Source: a bacterium (lineage in GTDB: Bacteria > CAIWAD01). From it: 64,000 nt of DNA. A program made the position numbers and the translations under genes. Position 1 is the first letter of the stretch. Every line of letters starts with the position of its first letter. The stretch spans positions 1 to 64,000 of the forward strand of contig JAUXWS010000095.1 in the NCBI GenBank assembly GCA_030685015.1. Reading direction: 5' to 3'. The notes under the pieces are model-generated. The model had not been told where the DNA came from and searched no databases. It saw nothing but the letters and a program-made list of their open reading frames with translations. Shown in pieces: positions 11,849 to 64,000 of this stretch.

Positions 11849-13204
11849 CTACATCACCAGCAGGATGGGGGACTCCAGCGCCTGGCAGATCCAACGCGTG
11901 AAGCGCGCCCCGTCCGCTCCGTCGATGATGCGGTGGTCGTAGGAGAAGGAGAGGGGGAGCATCAGGCGCGGCTCGAAGCATCCCTTCGCCTCATTCCAGA
12001 CCGGTTCGCGCCGGGCCCGCGACACGCCCAGGATGGCCGCCTCGGGGTGGTTGACGATGGGCGTGAAGGCCGTGCCGCCGATGCCGCCCAGGTTGGTCAG
12101 CGTGATGCAGGCCCCCTGCAGCTCCTCGGGGCCGGTCTTGCGCTCGCGGGCGCGGGCGGACAGCTCTCCCAGCTCGCGGGCCAGCTCGAGCACGCCCTTG
12201 CCGTCGGCGTCCCGGATGACGGGCACGAGCAGGCCGCGCTCGGTGTCCACCGCCACCCCCACGTGGCAATAGTGCTTGCGGATGAGCCGCTCGCGGCCCA
12301 GGTCCAGGCTCGTATTGACTTGGGGAAAGGCCCGGAGCGCCTGGGCCAGCACGCGGATGAGCAGGGCCGTCATGGTGAGGCGCGGGGCGCCGGGGTCCTG
12401 CTTGTCCAGCGCCTTCTGCTGGCGCAGGCGGAAGGCCTCCAACTCCGTCACGTCGGCCTTGTCGAACTGGGTCACCCGCGGCGTCAGCAGCCAGGCCGAG
12501 GCCAGATGGCGGGCCGTCACGCGGCGCACGCCGGTCAGCGGCGCCTCCTCCACCTCGCCCCAGCGGCTGAAGTCGGGCAGCTCCACCTCCAGGATCCCGG
12601 CGGCGGCCGGGTGCCGCGAGCCGGCGGCCGATCCCACCTGCGCTTCGAGCAGGGCCTTGACGTGGGCCTTGACATCCTCGCGCGAGATGCGGCCGCCGGG
12701 GCCGCTGCCCGCCACCCGGCGGATCTCCACGCCCAGCTCGCGGGCCAGGCGGCGCACGGTGGGGGAGGCGGGCACGGGCGTGCCGGGATCCGGCTCCCTG
12801 GGGGCTTCCACGGAGGGGAGGGGGGGAGTCGATCCCGATAGCGATCCCGATCCCGATAGCGATCCCGATTCGATTTCACGTTCTGGGTTCGACTCCGCGG
12901 CGGCAGCGGATGGCGGCGCCGGAAGGGTTTCTGGTTGAGGCACGGTGGGCGCGACGGAGGCGGGGCTCTCCTCCTCCAGGCGCAGGATGGCCGCCCCCAC
13001 TTCCAGGCGCTCACCTGGCTTGGCCAGCACGTCCGTCACACGGCCCGCCTTGCCGGCGGGCACCTCGATCACGGCCTTGTCCGTCTCCAGCTCCAGGACC
13101 GGCGTGTCGGCGCGGACCAGGTCGCCGGCCTTGACGAGGACGGCCGTGAGATCGCCCCCCGTGATGTTCTCGCCCAGGTCGGGCAGGGTGATGATGATCG
13201 CCAT
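11849..13204 (-). CDS. aceF: Dihydrolipoamide acetyltransferase (E2)
   Basis: A 451-residue E2 of the pyruvate dehydrogenase complex. A single lipoyl domain carries the lipoylated Lys in ELETDKAVIEVPAG near residue 43. A flexible linker of Pro, Ala, Ser and Gly follows, then the E3-binding domain (SPTVRRLARELGVEI with GSGPGGRISREDV), and the catalytic core ending in DHRIIDGADGARF with the HxxxDG site. GGAGGAG precedes the ATG. The linker contains SGSLSGSGSLSGS, encoded by GATC-type hexamers like those between the two vertex-protein genes at 49.6 kb. It is 11 bp downstream of aceE. Confidence 0.95.
   Translation of the reverse strand: MAIIITLPDLGENITGGDLTAVLVKAGDLVRADTPVLELETDKAVIEVPAGKAGRVTDVLAKPGERLEVGAAILRLEEESPASVAPTVPQPETLPAPPSAAAAESNPEREIESGSLSGSGSLSGSTPPLPSVEAPREPDPGTPVPASPTVRRLARELGVEIRRVAGSGPGGRISREDVKAHVKALLEAQVGSAAGSRHPAAAGILEVELPDFSRWGEVEEAPLTGVRRVTARHLASAWLLTPRVTQFDKADVTELEAFRLRQQKALDKQDPGAPRLTMTALLIRVLAQALRAFPQVNTSLDLGRERLIRKHYCHVGVAVDTERGLLVPVIRDADGKGVLELARELGELSARARERKTGPEELQGACITLTNLGGIGGTAFTPIVNHPEAAILGVSRARREPVWNEAKGCFEPRLMLPLSFSYDHRIIDGADGARFTRWICQALESPILLVM
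12831..12866. repeat. Hexanucleotide repeats inside the aceF linker
   Basis: Six tandem 6-bp units read GATCCC, GATAGC, GATCCC, GATCCC, GATAGC, GATCCC on the plus strand. In the coding direction they are mixed GATCGG/TATCGG/GATCGC units and encode alternating Gly-Ser and Leu-Ser pairs in the flexible linker. The same unit family forms the longer array at 49563-49652. Confidence 0.85.
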
Positions 13205-49562: not shown

Positions 49563-49652
49563 TACCGTTACAGTTACCGCTATCGCTATCGCTATCGGGA
49601 TCGGGATCGGGATCGGGATCGGGATCGGGATCGATATCGATATCGATATCGA
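49563..49652. repeat. Hexanucleotide array between the two vertex genes
   Basis: Fifteen 6-bp units run without gaps. On the plus strand they shift in blocks: TACCGT, TACAGT, TACCGC, TATCGC twice, TATCGG, GATCGG five times, GATCGA and TATCGA three times. Most fit (T/G)ATCGN. It fills most of the intergenic space between copy 2 and copy 1. The same units occur inside aceF at 12831-12866. Confidence 0.95.
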
Positions 49653-61364: not shown

Positions 61365-61391
61365 GGAATGACCCGCGAGCCACGGCCGTCC
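61365..61391 (+). promoter_or_regulatory. Possible ECF-type promoter upstream of the sigma gene
   Basis: GGAAT (61365-61369) and CGTCC (61387-61391) are 17 bp apart, matching the GGAAC-N16/17-CGTC shape of many ECF sigma promoters, about 75 bp before the sigma start. Autoregulation of the operon would explain it. A single match in GC-rich DNA is weak evidence. Confidence 0.3.
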
Positions 61392-61467: not shown

Positions 61468-62082
61468 ATGAGCCAATCCCAGCCGGCCGTCCCGCCCCGC
61501 CCCGCCGAGGAATGGCTGGCCATGGCCCGCGCCGGCGACGAAGAGGCCTTCCGCCGGCTGGTGGAAGCCCACGAGGGGAGGGTGGCGGCCGTGGTGCTGG
61601 GCATGCTGGGCGAGGACGAGGCCGAGGACGTGGCCCAGGAGGTTTTCATCCGCTGCCACCGGTCCCTGGACCAGTTCCGGGGCGAGGCCCAGCTTTCCAC
61701 CTGGCTGACCCGCATCGCCATCAACTTGTGTCTGGACCGCCTGCGGGCCCGCAAACGCTGGCACCTGCGTTTTCTCCACCTGGACACCGAGGAGGGGCGG
61801 GCAAGGGAACCGGCGCTGGACGGCGAGGCGGCGCTGGATGCCCGCGAACGCGGGCGGCTGGTGCGGCGGGCCGTGCACCGCCTGAAGCCGGAGTGGCGGG
61901 CCGTGGTGGTCCTGCGCTGGTTGCAGGGCCTGTCCACGGAGGAGACGGCCCAGCAGCTGGGCATTCCCTACGGCACGGTCCTCTCCAGGCTGTCCCGCGC
62001 CATGGAGGCCCTGCGGCGGGAGCTGGGGCCCTTGCTGGACCGGGGAGAGGGACGAAGACCTGCGCAGGAGGAGCGACCATGA
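61468..62082 (+). CDS. ECF RNA polymerase sigma factor
   Basis: A 204-residue extracytoplasmic-function sigma factor. Region 2 spans DEEAFRRLVEAHEGRV to AEDVAQEVFIRCHRSLDQFR, and WLTRIAINLCLDRLR ends region 2.4. Region 4 is LKPEWRAVVVLRWLQGLSTE followed by ETAQQLGIPYGTVLSRLSRAME, the recognition helix for the -35 element. The stop overlaps the next gene's ATG (ATGA), so it is coupled to the membrane partner. It likely answers an envelope or metal signal, judging by the downstream genes. Confidence 0.93.
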   Translation: MSQSQPAVPPRPAEEWLAMARAGDEEAFRRLVEAHEGRVAAVVLGMLGEDEAEDVAQEVFIRCHRSLDQFRGEAQLSTWLTRIAINLCLDRLRARKRWHLRFLHLDTEEGRAREPALDGEAALDARERGRLVRRAVHRLKPEWRAVVVLRWLQGLSTEETAQQLGIPYGTVLSRLSRAMEALRRELGPLLDRGEGRRPAQEERP

Positions 62083-62402
62083 CAAGCAAGCACGACGAGA
62101 CGGGCGGACTGGAGCGCCTGGTGGCGGAGAGCGCGATCCATTCCTTTCGCCCGGGCTTCGCCGGTCGCGTCTTGGCCCGCCTGGAGGCCGAGCGGCGGAC
62201 CGCCGCCGAGGTGAACCCCTTCTGGCAGTGGACCTGGCGCCTCTTTCCCGCCGCCGGCACCGCCCTCTTCCTGTTGGCGGCCGGCCTCGCCGCCTGGAAC
62301 CTGGCGGCCCAGCCCGAGGGCGTCTGGCTGGACCGCCTGCTCAACCTGCCCGCCGAAACACTGGAGAACGGCCTGGTGGCTCAACTGGAGGACTGGTCAT
62401 GA
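62079..62402 (+). CDS. Putative membrane anti-sigma factor
   Basis: A 107-residue protein with one membrane helix near the middle (LFPAAGTALFLLAAGLAAWN), a cytoplasmic N-terminal part (ERLVAESAIHSFRPGFAGRV) and a short periplasmic tail. No zinc-binding HxxxCxxC motif is present, so it is not a typical ZAS anti-sigma. Its position, coupled directly to the ECF sigma gene, and its topology support an anti-sigma role. GGAGGAG precedes the ATG. Confidence 0.65.
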   Translation: MTSKHDETGGLERLVAESAIHSFRPGFAGRVLARLEAERRTAAEVNPFWQWTWRLFPAAGTALFLLAAGLAAWNLAAQPEGVWLDRLLNLPAETLENGLVAQLEDWS

Positions 62403-62914
62403 ACCCGCGCACGCGCAGCCTGGCCGCCCTGGCCTTGACCCTGATCATCGGCCTGATCCTGGGTCTGCTCCTGGGTGGACGGCTGGCCGCCCGCCGCTTC
62501 GACCGCCTGGCGGCCATGGCCTACCCGCCCCACCTGATGACCCTGCTGCATGAATCGCTTGAGCTGGACGCGGGCCAGCAGAACTTCGTCGATTCATTGC
62601 TTGAGGCGCAGGCCGGACTGATGAGTGAGCGCATGCGGGAGCATCGCCGCTACCTGCGCGGACAGGTGGACAGCCTGCTGTCGGCCCTGCGTCCCCATTT
62701 GTCGGAGGAGCAGTGGGCGCGCTTGCAGGATCAGCTGGCCAAGCCGCCCCGGCGCGGGCGTCCCGGCTGGGGAAGGCCGGGTGGCGGCCCGCCCGACGGG
62801 CTTGGTCCGGATGGACCAGGACGACGACGCCACTGGAGACAACAGGCCGGACGCGACATCCCGCCCGACAGCCTGGACGTCCCGCCGCCCCCACCGCCCG
62901 GGGATCGGCCATGA
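62399..62914 (+). CDS. CpxP/Spy-like periplasmic sensor protein, membrane-anchored
   Basis: A 171-residue protein with an N-terminal membrane anchor (LAALALTLIIGLILGLLLGG). A helical periplasmic domain follows with LTLLHESLELDAGQQNFVDS-type packing, LLHESLELDAGQQNF and LRPHLSEEQWARLQDQLAK, resembling heavy-metal-sensor and CpxP/ZraP-like helices. The last 50 residues are Gly/Pro/Arg-rich and probably disordered, ending in a poly-Pro run. ATG 62399 overlaps the stop of the preceding gene (ATGA). It may modulate the anti-sigma partner. Confidence 0.6.
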   Translation: MNPRTRSLAALALTLIIGLILGLLLGGRLAARRFDRLAAMAYPPHLMTLLHESLELDAGQQNFVDSLLEAQAGLMSERMREHRRYLRGQVDSLLSALRPHLSEEQWARLQDQLAKPPRRGRPGWGRPGGGPPDGLGPDGPGRRRHWRQQAGRDIPPDSLDVPPPPPPGDRP

Positions 62915-63246
62915 GACAATGCGCCACAGGGGGCGCCATCCTGCGCCGGACAGGCCTGCTTCTCGCCTGCGCGTGGTGGGCGGCCGGCTGCCGCACGACA
63001 CTGGAGGCATCCCGCCTCGCCGCGGCGCCGCGCGTTTTCTGCCCCTGGCCGGCGCCGCCTCCCCGCGCTTGGCGGCGGGCGGGTCCATGGATGATTGGTT
63101 CCTGGAGTTGGAGCGGCCGACCAGGCAGTGGGCCGGGCTACAGGATGAGCGCGGCCGTCGGGGCGTCAGCGAGGTGGCAGCTCCAGGGGTCGGGGACCGG
63201 CTGCCCGCCCGGGTGGTTGGGGCGACGGCCCAGGTCCAAGTGGTGA
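62911..63246 (+). pseudogene. Lipoprotein gene with apparent frame disruption
   Basis: ATG 62911 overlaps the preceding stop (ATGA) and opens a convincing lipoprotein signal, RRTGLLLACAWWAAGC, with Cys near residue 27. Beyond about residue 45 this frame becomes Trp/Pro/Arg-rich and stops at 63246. Coding character then moves to another frame, which encodes RGAARFLPLAGAASPRLAAG followed by MDDWFLELERPTRQWAGLQD and continues to a stop at 63344. A frameshift around 62990-63080 would join the two. It is either a genuine mutation or a sequence error. No family recognised. Confidence 0.4.
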
Positions 63247-63420
63247 ATCTGGTGGCCCGCGAGGCCGTGACGCGCGCGGCACGTCCCCGAGCGGTTCCGC
63301 CGCTTCCGGCAGCGCGGAGCTGGATGGCCTGCCCCTGCGCCTGACCGTGCGTCCGCGACCCTGACGGAATCGGTCTGCCCGGAGCGCCGTCAGACGGGCA
63401 CAAAACACAAGGAGAAGGAC

Positions 63421-64000
63421 ATGCTGCACACGACGACCTCCGGCCTGCTGCGCTTGTCGCTGTTGGCCGCCCTGCTGGCCGCGACTCAGGCGCCGGCCAC
63501 CACCTGGCAGGAGCTGGATTCCCATCAGAAGAGTGAGCTGCGACTCATGCAGGCGCGCCACCTGGATGAGGGAACGGACGCGGTGCAAGCCCGGGCCGAG
63601 CGCGACGAATTGCTGCGCTCCTGGGGCCTGGCCGCGCCGGCGGCGGGCCAAGGCCTGGGACGGGGCCAGGGAGCCCGCGGCTTTTGCCAGGATCTGTCGC
63701 AGGAGCAGCGTCAGCAGCTCTGGCAGTTGCGCCAGCGCCTGGAGAGCGAGGGGGCCGGACCCGCCGCCATGCGTGCCGAGCACGACAAGCTGCTGCGTTC
63801 CTGGGGCCTGGAGCCGCCGGCGGCCGGCCGGGGCCGGGGTCCGGGTGCCTGTGGTGTGGGGATGGACCTGACGAAGGAGCAGCGCCAGCAGCTCTGGCAA
63901 CTGCGCCAGCGGCTGGAGAGCGAGGGGGCCGAACCCGCCGCCATTCGCACCGAGCACGACCAGCTGTTGCGCTCCTGGGGCCTTGAGCCGCCCGTCGCCG
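63421..64000 (+). CDS. Periplasmic 58-residue-repeat protein (partial, runs off the window)
   Basis: An open frame from ATG 63421 (AAGGAGAAGGAC site) continues past the right edge. A signal peptide (SGLLRLSLLAALLAATQAPA) is followed by at least three tandem repeats of 58 residues, each with a helix EQRQQLWQLRQRLESEGA, a second helix (AEHDKLLRSWGLEPP) and a Gly/Arg-rich linker with a Cys. The repeat helix resembles the LTxxQ motif of CpxP/Spy chaperones. It ends the ECF-sigma operon in view and may be a periplasmic chaperone or metal binder. Confidence 0.8.
   Translation, partial: MLHTTTSGLLRLSLLAALLAATQAPATTWQELDSHQKSELRLMQARHLDEGTDAVQARAERDELLRSWGLAAPAAGQGLGRGQGARGFCQDLSQEQRQQLWQLRQRLESEGAGPAAMRAEHDKLLRSWGLEPPAAGRGRGPGACGVGMDLTKEQRQQLWQLRQRLESEGAEPAAIRTEHDQLLRSWGLEPPVA
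63517..64000 (+). repeat. Tandem 174-bp coding repeats
   Basis: Equivalent codons recur at 63517, 63691 and 63865, exactly 174 bp apart; the third copy is cut by the window edge. Copies 2 and 3 are very similar at the DNA level, copy 1 is diverged, so the later copies arose by recent duplication. Confidence 0.9.

Follow-up and report, generated by a model that had tools for sequence, protein, structure and literature searches.

A putative envelope-stress ECF sigma module with a tandem-unit, probably exported effector in a CAIWAD01 bacterium

Genes of the locus

We analyzed the end of a 64,000-nucleotide stretch of DNA (the window: bases 1-64000 of the 101,007-base contig JAUXWS010000095.1, assembly GCA_030685015.1) from a bacterium of GTDB lineage CAIWAD01. 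Here the gene for a sigma factor of the extracytoplasmic function (ECF) type opens what appears to be an autoregulated stress-response module, in which a further gene encodes a protein built of tandem units (the repeat gene). The genome of the window, labelled G000 (relatives bear similar labels, single loci L numbers), is 3.61 Mb long in 105 contigs and 97% complete. The reading was carried beyond the window edge on the same contig, a step proposed in an earlier note drawn from the sequence; the repeat gene was found to continue to base 64554, encoding 377 amino acids (aa) with four units in total (Table 1).

The genes follow each other in the order sigma factor, one-helix protein, membrane-anchored helical protein (the sensor), frame-broken gene 4 and repeat gene, then PAP2, glycosyltransferase and MgtC genes. 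The earlier note had placed an ECF sigma factor, a one-helix partner and a CpxP/Spy-like gene in a row, and profiles and open reading frame (ORF) coordinates bear this out. The ATGA overlaps it reported among the first four genes are present at 62079, 62399 and 62911, three junctions linking four starts.

Table 1. Coordinates of the features of the locus on the contig (window end, 64000)
Feature	Position	Strand	Basis
Promoter P1 of the sigma operon, GGAAT-N17-CGTC then CAAG	61365..61390	+	Motif conservation at the sigma gene
ECF sigma factor, 204 aa	61468..62082	+	Sigma70_r2 7.5e-17, Sigma70_r4_2 1.6e-12
Putative one-helix membrane anti-sigma factor, 107 aa	62079..62402	+	Position, weak family match
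Membrane-anchored CnrX/Spy-like sensor (putative), 171 aa, Pro-rich tail	62399..62914	+	Alignment with 15 homologues
Frame-broken gene 4	62911..63364	+	Reading frames; intact 280-aa lipoprotein at the same place in G003
Promoter P2 of the repeat gene, GGAAT-N17-CGTC	63366..63391	+	55 nt before the ATG
Repeat gene, 377 aa	63421..64000 in window, to contig base 64554	+	Signal peptide judged by eye, four units, C-terminal T9SS type A sorting domain
Unit 1, degenerate	63514..63639	+	Unit profile
Unit 2	63694..63819	+	Unit profile
Unit 3	63868..63993	+	Unit profile
Unit 4, outside window	64048-64173	+	Unit profile

The sigma factor matched the NCBIfam family TIGR02937 at 105.7 bits (cut-off 42.9), and the one-helix protein an NCBIfam anti-sigma family at 1.3e-4 and 22 bits, below the cut-off of 100. 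At E <= 0.1 members of the sensor family matched Pfam LTXXQ (9/16, best 9.8e-6) and Metal_resist, PF13801 (4/16, best 1.8e-15); the G000 sensor itself matched neither at this threshold. It was modelled with a membrane helix, three further helices and a Pro-rich tail of low confidence (mean predicted local distance difference test score, pLDDT, 80). Foldseek and VIA-align returned no usable match to a CnrX-type fold, and a profile search of the PDB gave apolipoprotein A-I (4.5e-7) and Spy (0.0084), matches that look like an effect of helical composition.

How regularly these genes occur together was seen from the best 80 sigma loci of named genomes, 79 of them with a sigma ORF (L205 was dropped). 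The sensor lies within 1.5 kb downstream of the sigma gene in 53, all with an anti-sigma profile match (the trio operons); the remaining 26 we call 'other' loci. With an ECF sigma factor, a single-pass partner and a membrane-anchored protein of LTXXQ/Metal_resist type, the locus appears to be organized like CirYZ-Spy and CnrYXH.

Gene 4 had been described as a lipoprotein. Its start resembles a lipoprotein signal, but the frame stops at 111 aa; a likely continuation runs in the other two frames to the TGA at 63362-63364. An intact lipoprotein in G000 was therefore rejected. The same slot holds an intact gene in G003 (same family) and an apparently broken one in the congener G002; in G001 a 48-nt gap alone separates sensor and repeat gene. 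As the lipoprotein profile gives no significant match in G000 (E 1.6, compared with 0.012 in G002), homology was judged from position and ends, and descent of gene 4 from a 280-aa lipoprotein gene of the type seen in G003 is suggested only. The gene looks to be decaying in the genus of G000, an assembly error being the alternative. A 267-280-aa gene of the lipoprotein profile adjoins the repeat gene in 9 of the 24 genomes introduced below.

Distribution of the repeat gene and of the promoter motif

A first unit profile gave matches in 7 of 386 genomes; a wider one matched in 17 of 82 genomes of the phylum of G049 and in 2/4 of that of G140. We found the unit in 24 distinct genomes from four phylum-level groups (those of the window, G049, G140 and G285), and searched all of their loci with profiles drawn from six (G000-G003, G049, G140). 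The repeat gene stands behind sigma, anti-sigma and sensor genes in 16 of the 24, in three phylum-level groups; six of these operons supplied the profiles and ten did not. Contig ends cut the neighbourhood in four genomes (G422, G424, G417, G444). In other phyla, too, the unit profile leads to proteins of this type in operons of this type, and the repeat family is thus not a product of chance.

The promoter motif flagged upstream of the sigma gene, which the earlier note had suggested to look for at other genes, proved real: it recurs at sigma genes and before repeat genes. In the form GGAA[CT]-N15-18-[CT]GTC it was found near the sigma start in 14 of the 16 repeat operons (390-nt windows; background 0.045-0.063 per random 330 nt; binomial 1.7e-15), and may be summarized as GGAAT-N16/17-YGTC. 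In four of the 14 (G429, G421, G049, G003) it falls just inside the longest possible sigma ORF, so that the true start should lie farther downstream. These operons are not a blind test, because the G049 and G000 sites were known when the pattern was made wider; an initial narrower expression found the sigma site in 4/16 operons and missed P2 of G000.

In 13 of the 16 the motif is found again ahead of the repeat gene or its segment (11 by the strict pattern, G000 and G002 by a looser one), which together with the adjoining trio upholds the earlier assignment of the repeat gene to the ECF operon. This second copy lies between sensor and repeat gene, or before TolC in G466; the intervals differ in length, and a single P value for it is thus only a guide. 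P2 is 55-56 nt before the ATG of the repeat gene in G000, G001 and G002.

The named loci provide a largely independent test (L151 is probably the same contig as C76 of G466). The motif precedes the sigma gene in 40 of 53 trio operons versus 2 of 26 'other' loci (Fisher 6e-9). The 'other' loci include L152 and L177, with a contig end close behind the sigma gene, as well as L164 and L182, with an anti-sigma-like ORF and no sensor match; the two that carry the motif are L152 and L182. The spacer measures 17 nt at 45 of 53 sigma sites and 16 nt at the other 8. On the two strands the 53 trio loci contain 17 and 9 further strict sites, 26 in all; among the 17 are a few sigma sites that lie slightly farther upstream.

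Some of these further sites reveal a variable effector slot. At seven of the 53 trio loci (L155, L156, L157, L159, L169, L172, L173) a gene for a Spy-like secreted protein has a second site before it. Pfam comparison of six candidate effectors of LTXXQ type gave a match to PF07813 at E <= 0.01 for all six; L155, L169, L172 and L173 have the second site, L154 and L168 merely stand behind the trio. The genes behind the further sites were named by eye. Besides the Spy-like ones they include TolC in L151, a lipoprotein gene in L159, PepSY-like genes in L158 and L213 and an ApbE-like gene in L181; no clear target lies behind the remaining sites. The PepSY-like (divergent) and ApbE-like genes adjoin the trio in Bacteroidota, hinting at a possible redox or metal link in that branch.

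Whole genomes were searched as well. The form GGAATN{15,17}CGTCCAAG occurs once in G000 (P1), three times in G001 (sigma gene, repeat gene and one other site), once in G002 (sigma gene) and three times in G003 (sigma gene, repeat gene and a gene pair with a tail of the type IX secretion system, T9SS, on the second member); its reversed-pattern control gave 1, 0, 0 and 0. In 11 genomes of low GC (guanine plus cytosine) content the motif occurs 2-16 times per genome, and the reversed pattern 0-4 times. In view of these counts, single distant sites are weak. Copies of this kind lie 61-76 nt upstream of efflux-adaptor-like, ABC (ATP-binding cassette) ATPase-like and TonB-like genes (L129 of G425, L137 of G421, L126 of G420) and 77 nt upstream of the gene pair in G003 (L146); the genes behind them, again named by eye, are possible further members of the regulon.

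The earlier note had named unrelated contexts of the repeat gene as counting against the operon, and such contexts exist: no sigma gene of this kind adjoins it in four of the 24 genomes (G451, G452, G445, G285). In G445 the motif lies 325 nt before the repeat gene and a trio with the motif is on a separate contig, as is also the case for the trio of G417. The best sigma matches in G445 and G417 have E-values of 5.0e-84 and 1.2e-80, versus 3.6e-41 and 2.2e-42 in G451 and G452, which have no sigma factor of ortholog range in the genome and no motif near the repeat gene. These cases (both in G445, neither in G451 and G452) fit a motif that would follow the sigma factor across genomes. The conserved promoter sequence at the sigma gene and at the effector gene points to autoregulation of the module.

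The modules are not uniform. TolC and MacAB-like genes are found in that of G466; that of G140 has TolC and an HlyD/MacA-like adaptor with one repeat unit inserted (L069 9216-10691, reverse-complemented locus). A 77-96-aa DUF5659-like ORF lies upstream of the repeat gene in L103 (G445), L111 (G466), L102 (G397) and L069 (G140), and in L099 (G444) before a contig end where a unit lies; the single ORF compared with Pfam matched DUF5659 at 26.1 bits (cut-off 23.6).

Units and export of the repeat protein

The G000 protein has four 42-residue units, with first residues at 32, 92, 150 and 210, spaced in DNA by 180, 174 and 180 bp. Core DNA identity is 83-88% among units 2-4 and 53-56% between unit 1 and the others; at an offset of 180 the units agree best, over 95 nt with a single mismatch. 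Tandem Repeats Finder reported a period of 180 with 82% matches, and on the window alone no exact 174-bp array. The description of the gene as exact 174-bp repeats was rejected on these grounds.

The earlier note also supposed that the effector is expanding by duplication. Unit statistics were computed for 94 full units from 22 genes (G417 and G444, with no full unit, were left out). Complete genes have 2-6 units and one partial gene has 1. Mean unit identity is 52.6% within genes (176 pairs) versus 39.8% between genes (4195 pairs), and 38 of 93 units have their closest match within their own gene, compared with a mean of 3.8 and a maximum of 13 after shuffling that ignores genome relatedness. 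Orthology of units position by position is kept between G440 and G441 (73-85% on the diagonal) and is absent between G420 and G421 and in the genus of G000. Variable unit number and homogenization in some genes agree with duplication; what is seen is turnover only, and G440/G441 remained orthologous by position. Unit number probably changes by duplication and conversion, and turnover is uneven among lineages.

Conserved positions of the unit (n=94) are L1 in 92, Q5 in 91, an aromatic residue at 37 in 91, G38 in 90 and P42 in 86. AlphaFold2 (two sequences) gave unit hairpins of 16-17 and 14 residues with a mean pLDDT of 71; two linker stretches fell below 50, and the linkers were modelled as unordered. 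The likeness to the LTxEQ-type helix of periplasmic chaperones, seen earlier, is real, although thin in the G000 protein. PF07813 (LTXXQ) exceeded its gathering cut-off (24.3) in two of four repeat proteins tested, G000 with 25.3 and G285 with 28.8 bits; the G049 protein scored 14.4 bits and that of G466 was unlisted at E <= 0.1.

The protein had been taken as periplasmic, which its C-terminus makes doubtful. It ends in a FlgD_ig match (43.4 bits, cut-off 27; 3.4e-11) and in the NCBIfam T9SS type A sorting domain, TIGR04183 (24.1 bits, cut-off 23); the counterpart PF18962 is above its cut-off in the repeat proteins of G466 and G049. A T9SS tail is present in 22 of the 23 repeat proteins recovered, G285 being without it. 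SprA, the outer-membrane pore of the T9SS, was found in 10/10 genomes tested, and SprA_N of G000 scores above the cut-off of Pfam. A sorting-domain score above the threshold, a signal peptide (seen by eye) and SprA in the genome are features expected of T9SS cargo; given the sorting domain and SprA, the G000 repeat protein is predicted to leave the periplasm and is probably exported. Two Bacteroidota likewise have a T9SS tail at the end of the gene following the sensor (L174 10418, L202 5051); the L174 gene matches the sensor profile too and is a possible intermediate.

Function of the module

Modules of this kind are already known, as CirYZ-Spy, CnrYXH, RpoE8 and a Prevotella LTXXQ gene set precedents. 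In Phocaeicola vulgatus the ECF/anti-sigma/Spy operon CirYZ-Spy is induced in colitis, and on deletion of the anti-sigma factor expression rises for the sigma gene and spy, and also for two downstream genes called transcriptionally unlinked (PMC13114119). It resembles the G000 module in gene organization (ECF sigma factor, anti-sigma factor and Spy-type gene on a single transcript), but the accessible part of that report mentions no tandem-unit T9SS cargo. By this analogy, the envelope stress assumed in the earlier note fits. CnrYXH of Cupriavidus metallidurans, the mechanistic model for such trios, likewise has an ECF sigma factor, a small membrane anti-sigma factor, a membrane-anchored helical sensor and targets outside the regulatory trio; CnrX binds Co/Ni and needs Met123, and the output is an efflux pump of the resistance-nodulation-division family (PMC7689651, PMC7406223). 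RpoE8 of Azospirillum brasilense, listed among proteins raised by RpoE6, heads an operon of the same gene order (sigma factor, hypothetical protein, 'periplasmic heavy metal sensor'), and what is accessible of that source mentions no repeat protein (PMC12826043). A Prevotella LTXXQ gene showed the highest induction in a biofilm array (PMC2633007). The LTxxQ helix is shared by the G000 repeat protein and the Spy/CpxP chaperones (PF07813; PMC4791398), and Spy-like genes occupy the same second-promoter slot in the seven trio loci above; unlike Spy and CpxP, repeat proteins of the G000 type have 2-6 hairpins in a row and a T9SS tail. Among the literature matches listed, none names an effector of this build, with tandem units, a T9SS tail and a promoter copy of its own that matches the one at the sigma gene.

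We consider it fairly probable that the locus is an autoregulated envelope-stress ECF module in which the slot of a Spy-type effector holds an exported tandem-unit protein, likely a client binder. The single-pass anti-sigma factor would keep the sigma factor at the inner membrane, and the Spy/CnrX-like protein, by analogy, would read a periplasmic signal. Upon the signal, free sigma factor would use P1 to transcribe its own operon and P2 to transcribe the repeat gene, as the matching promoter sequences suggest. The repeat protein, with its signal peptide and sorting tail, would leave through the SprA pore and end up on the cell surface or in the medium; its units, independent two-helix hairpins on flexible linkers, could there act as a multivalent, ATP-independent holdase or client binder outside the outer membrane, the weakest step of this scheme. 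A client-binding role is proposed because the slot is shared with single-domain LTXXQ (Spy/CpxP-type) proteins of relatives; given this and the LTXXQ relationship, binding of unfolded or damaged protein is, by analogy, the most likely function. The sequence evidence is good for regulation and modest for function.

Several observations weigh against this account. Homology of unit and sensor is not solid (hhalign probability 29%), and a fold comparison of sensor and repeat gave no usable match. The unit profile found no Spy match in the PDB by sequence, mostly designed proteins being matched, and a fold search with the two-helix unit model gave no PDB match. Of 23 repeat regions, 16 carry no net charge or a negative one; the cradle of Spy is basic. 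The TIGR04183 match of G000 is barely above its cut-off and PF18962 is below its own (15.4 vs 27). The motif is missing at the sigma gene in G428 and G140 and before the repeat gene in G428, G140 and G049; the anti-sigma factor of G140, one of the 16, is of a different class, zf-HC2. Repeat units occur at only one of the best 80 named sigma loci (L151), so that the repeat gene is a rare effector of this sigma family.

One could speculate further about a surface-exported 'poly-Spy', a sigma-controlled string of hairpins that would shield proteins outside the outer membrane and gain valency by unit duplication; we regard this as possible rather than probable. Alternatively, with regulation as described, the repeat protein might be a stress-induced structural surface protein (surface layer, adhesin or spacer) and no chaperone. 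The T9SS tail, Gly-rich regions (6-15% Gly), variable unit number and the lack of firm homology to Spy are in line with this. We still think it unlikely, for the second promoter copy stands before a Spy-like gene in 7/53 named trio loci, the effector candidates tested are LTXXQ proteins, and the unit keeps L-x-x-x-Q, with LTXXQ over its cut-off in G000.

The earlier note had also thought of metal stress, that is, a CnrYXH-type module whose repeat protein might sequester metal ions outside the cell. The overlap of the sensor family with Metal_resist, Cys in linkers and His in most units of the genus of G000, and TolC and MacA-like genes in the G140 and G466 modules could be cited for it. Unlike CnrX with its metal ligands, however, sensors of the G000 type have no conserved His, Cys or Met column besides the start Met, in alignments of 16 and of 47 sequences (CnrX not included). 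No metal ligand is conserved in the units either (the best-filled positions have His in 33/94 and Met in 32/94), and 14 of 23 repeat regions are without any Cys. With no conserved column in sensor or units the metal reading is unsupported, and we hold it to be quite improbable. Least credible of all is that the repeat protein, like CpxP, which switches off its stress response by feedback, would compete with the sensor for misfolded clients: it shares the promoter type of the sigma operon and the LTXXQ relationship, but its T9SS tail would remove it from the periplasm, where the sensor is.

If the favoured reading of an exported, client-binding effector is true, a bacterial stress response would extend past the outer membrane; were the 'poly-Spy' idea true as well, this would be an extracellular arm of the envelope-stress response common to several little-studied phyla. 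The ECF group itself is definable by sequence: its promoter is sharp (GGAATAA-N14/15-TGTCTAA), the trio is constant and the effector slot varies. Trio and motif are found in records of Bacteroidota, Ignavibacteriales, Calditrichota, Aminicenantes, Zixibacteria and Gemmatimonadota, and also in the group to which the window belongs; the motif could serve to read the regulons of uncultured phyla.

Two minor observations concern the surroundings. The MgtC gene (L004 6308-6871; counterparts L040, L041) stands after the repeat gene in G001 and G002, where names were given by sequence likeness, and two genes farther on in G000. Elsewhere in the window we observed two 6-bp tandem arrays of 6.7 copies each, at 49594-49633 and 12830-12869, with units ATCGGG and CGATCC.

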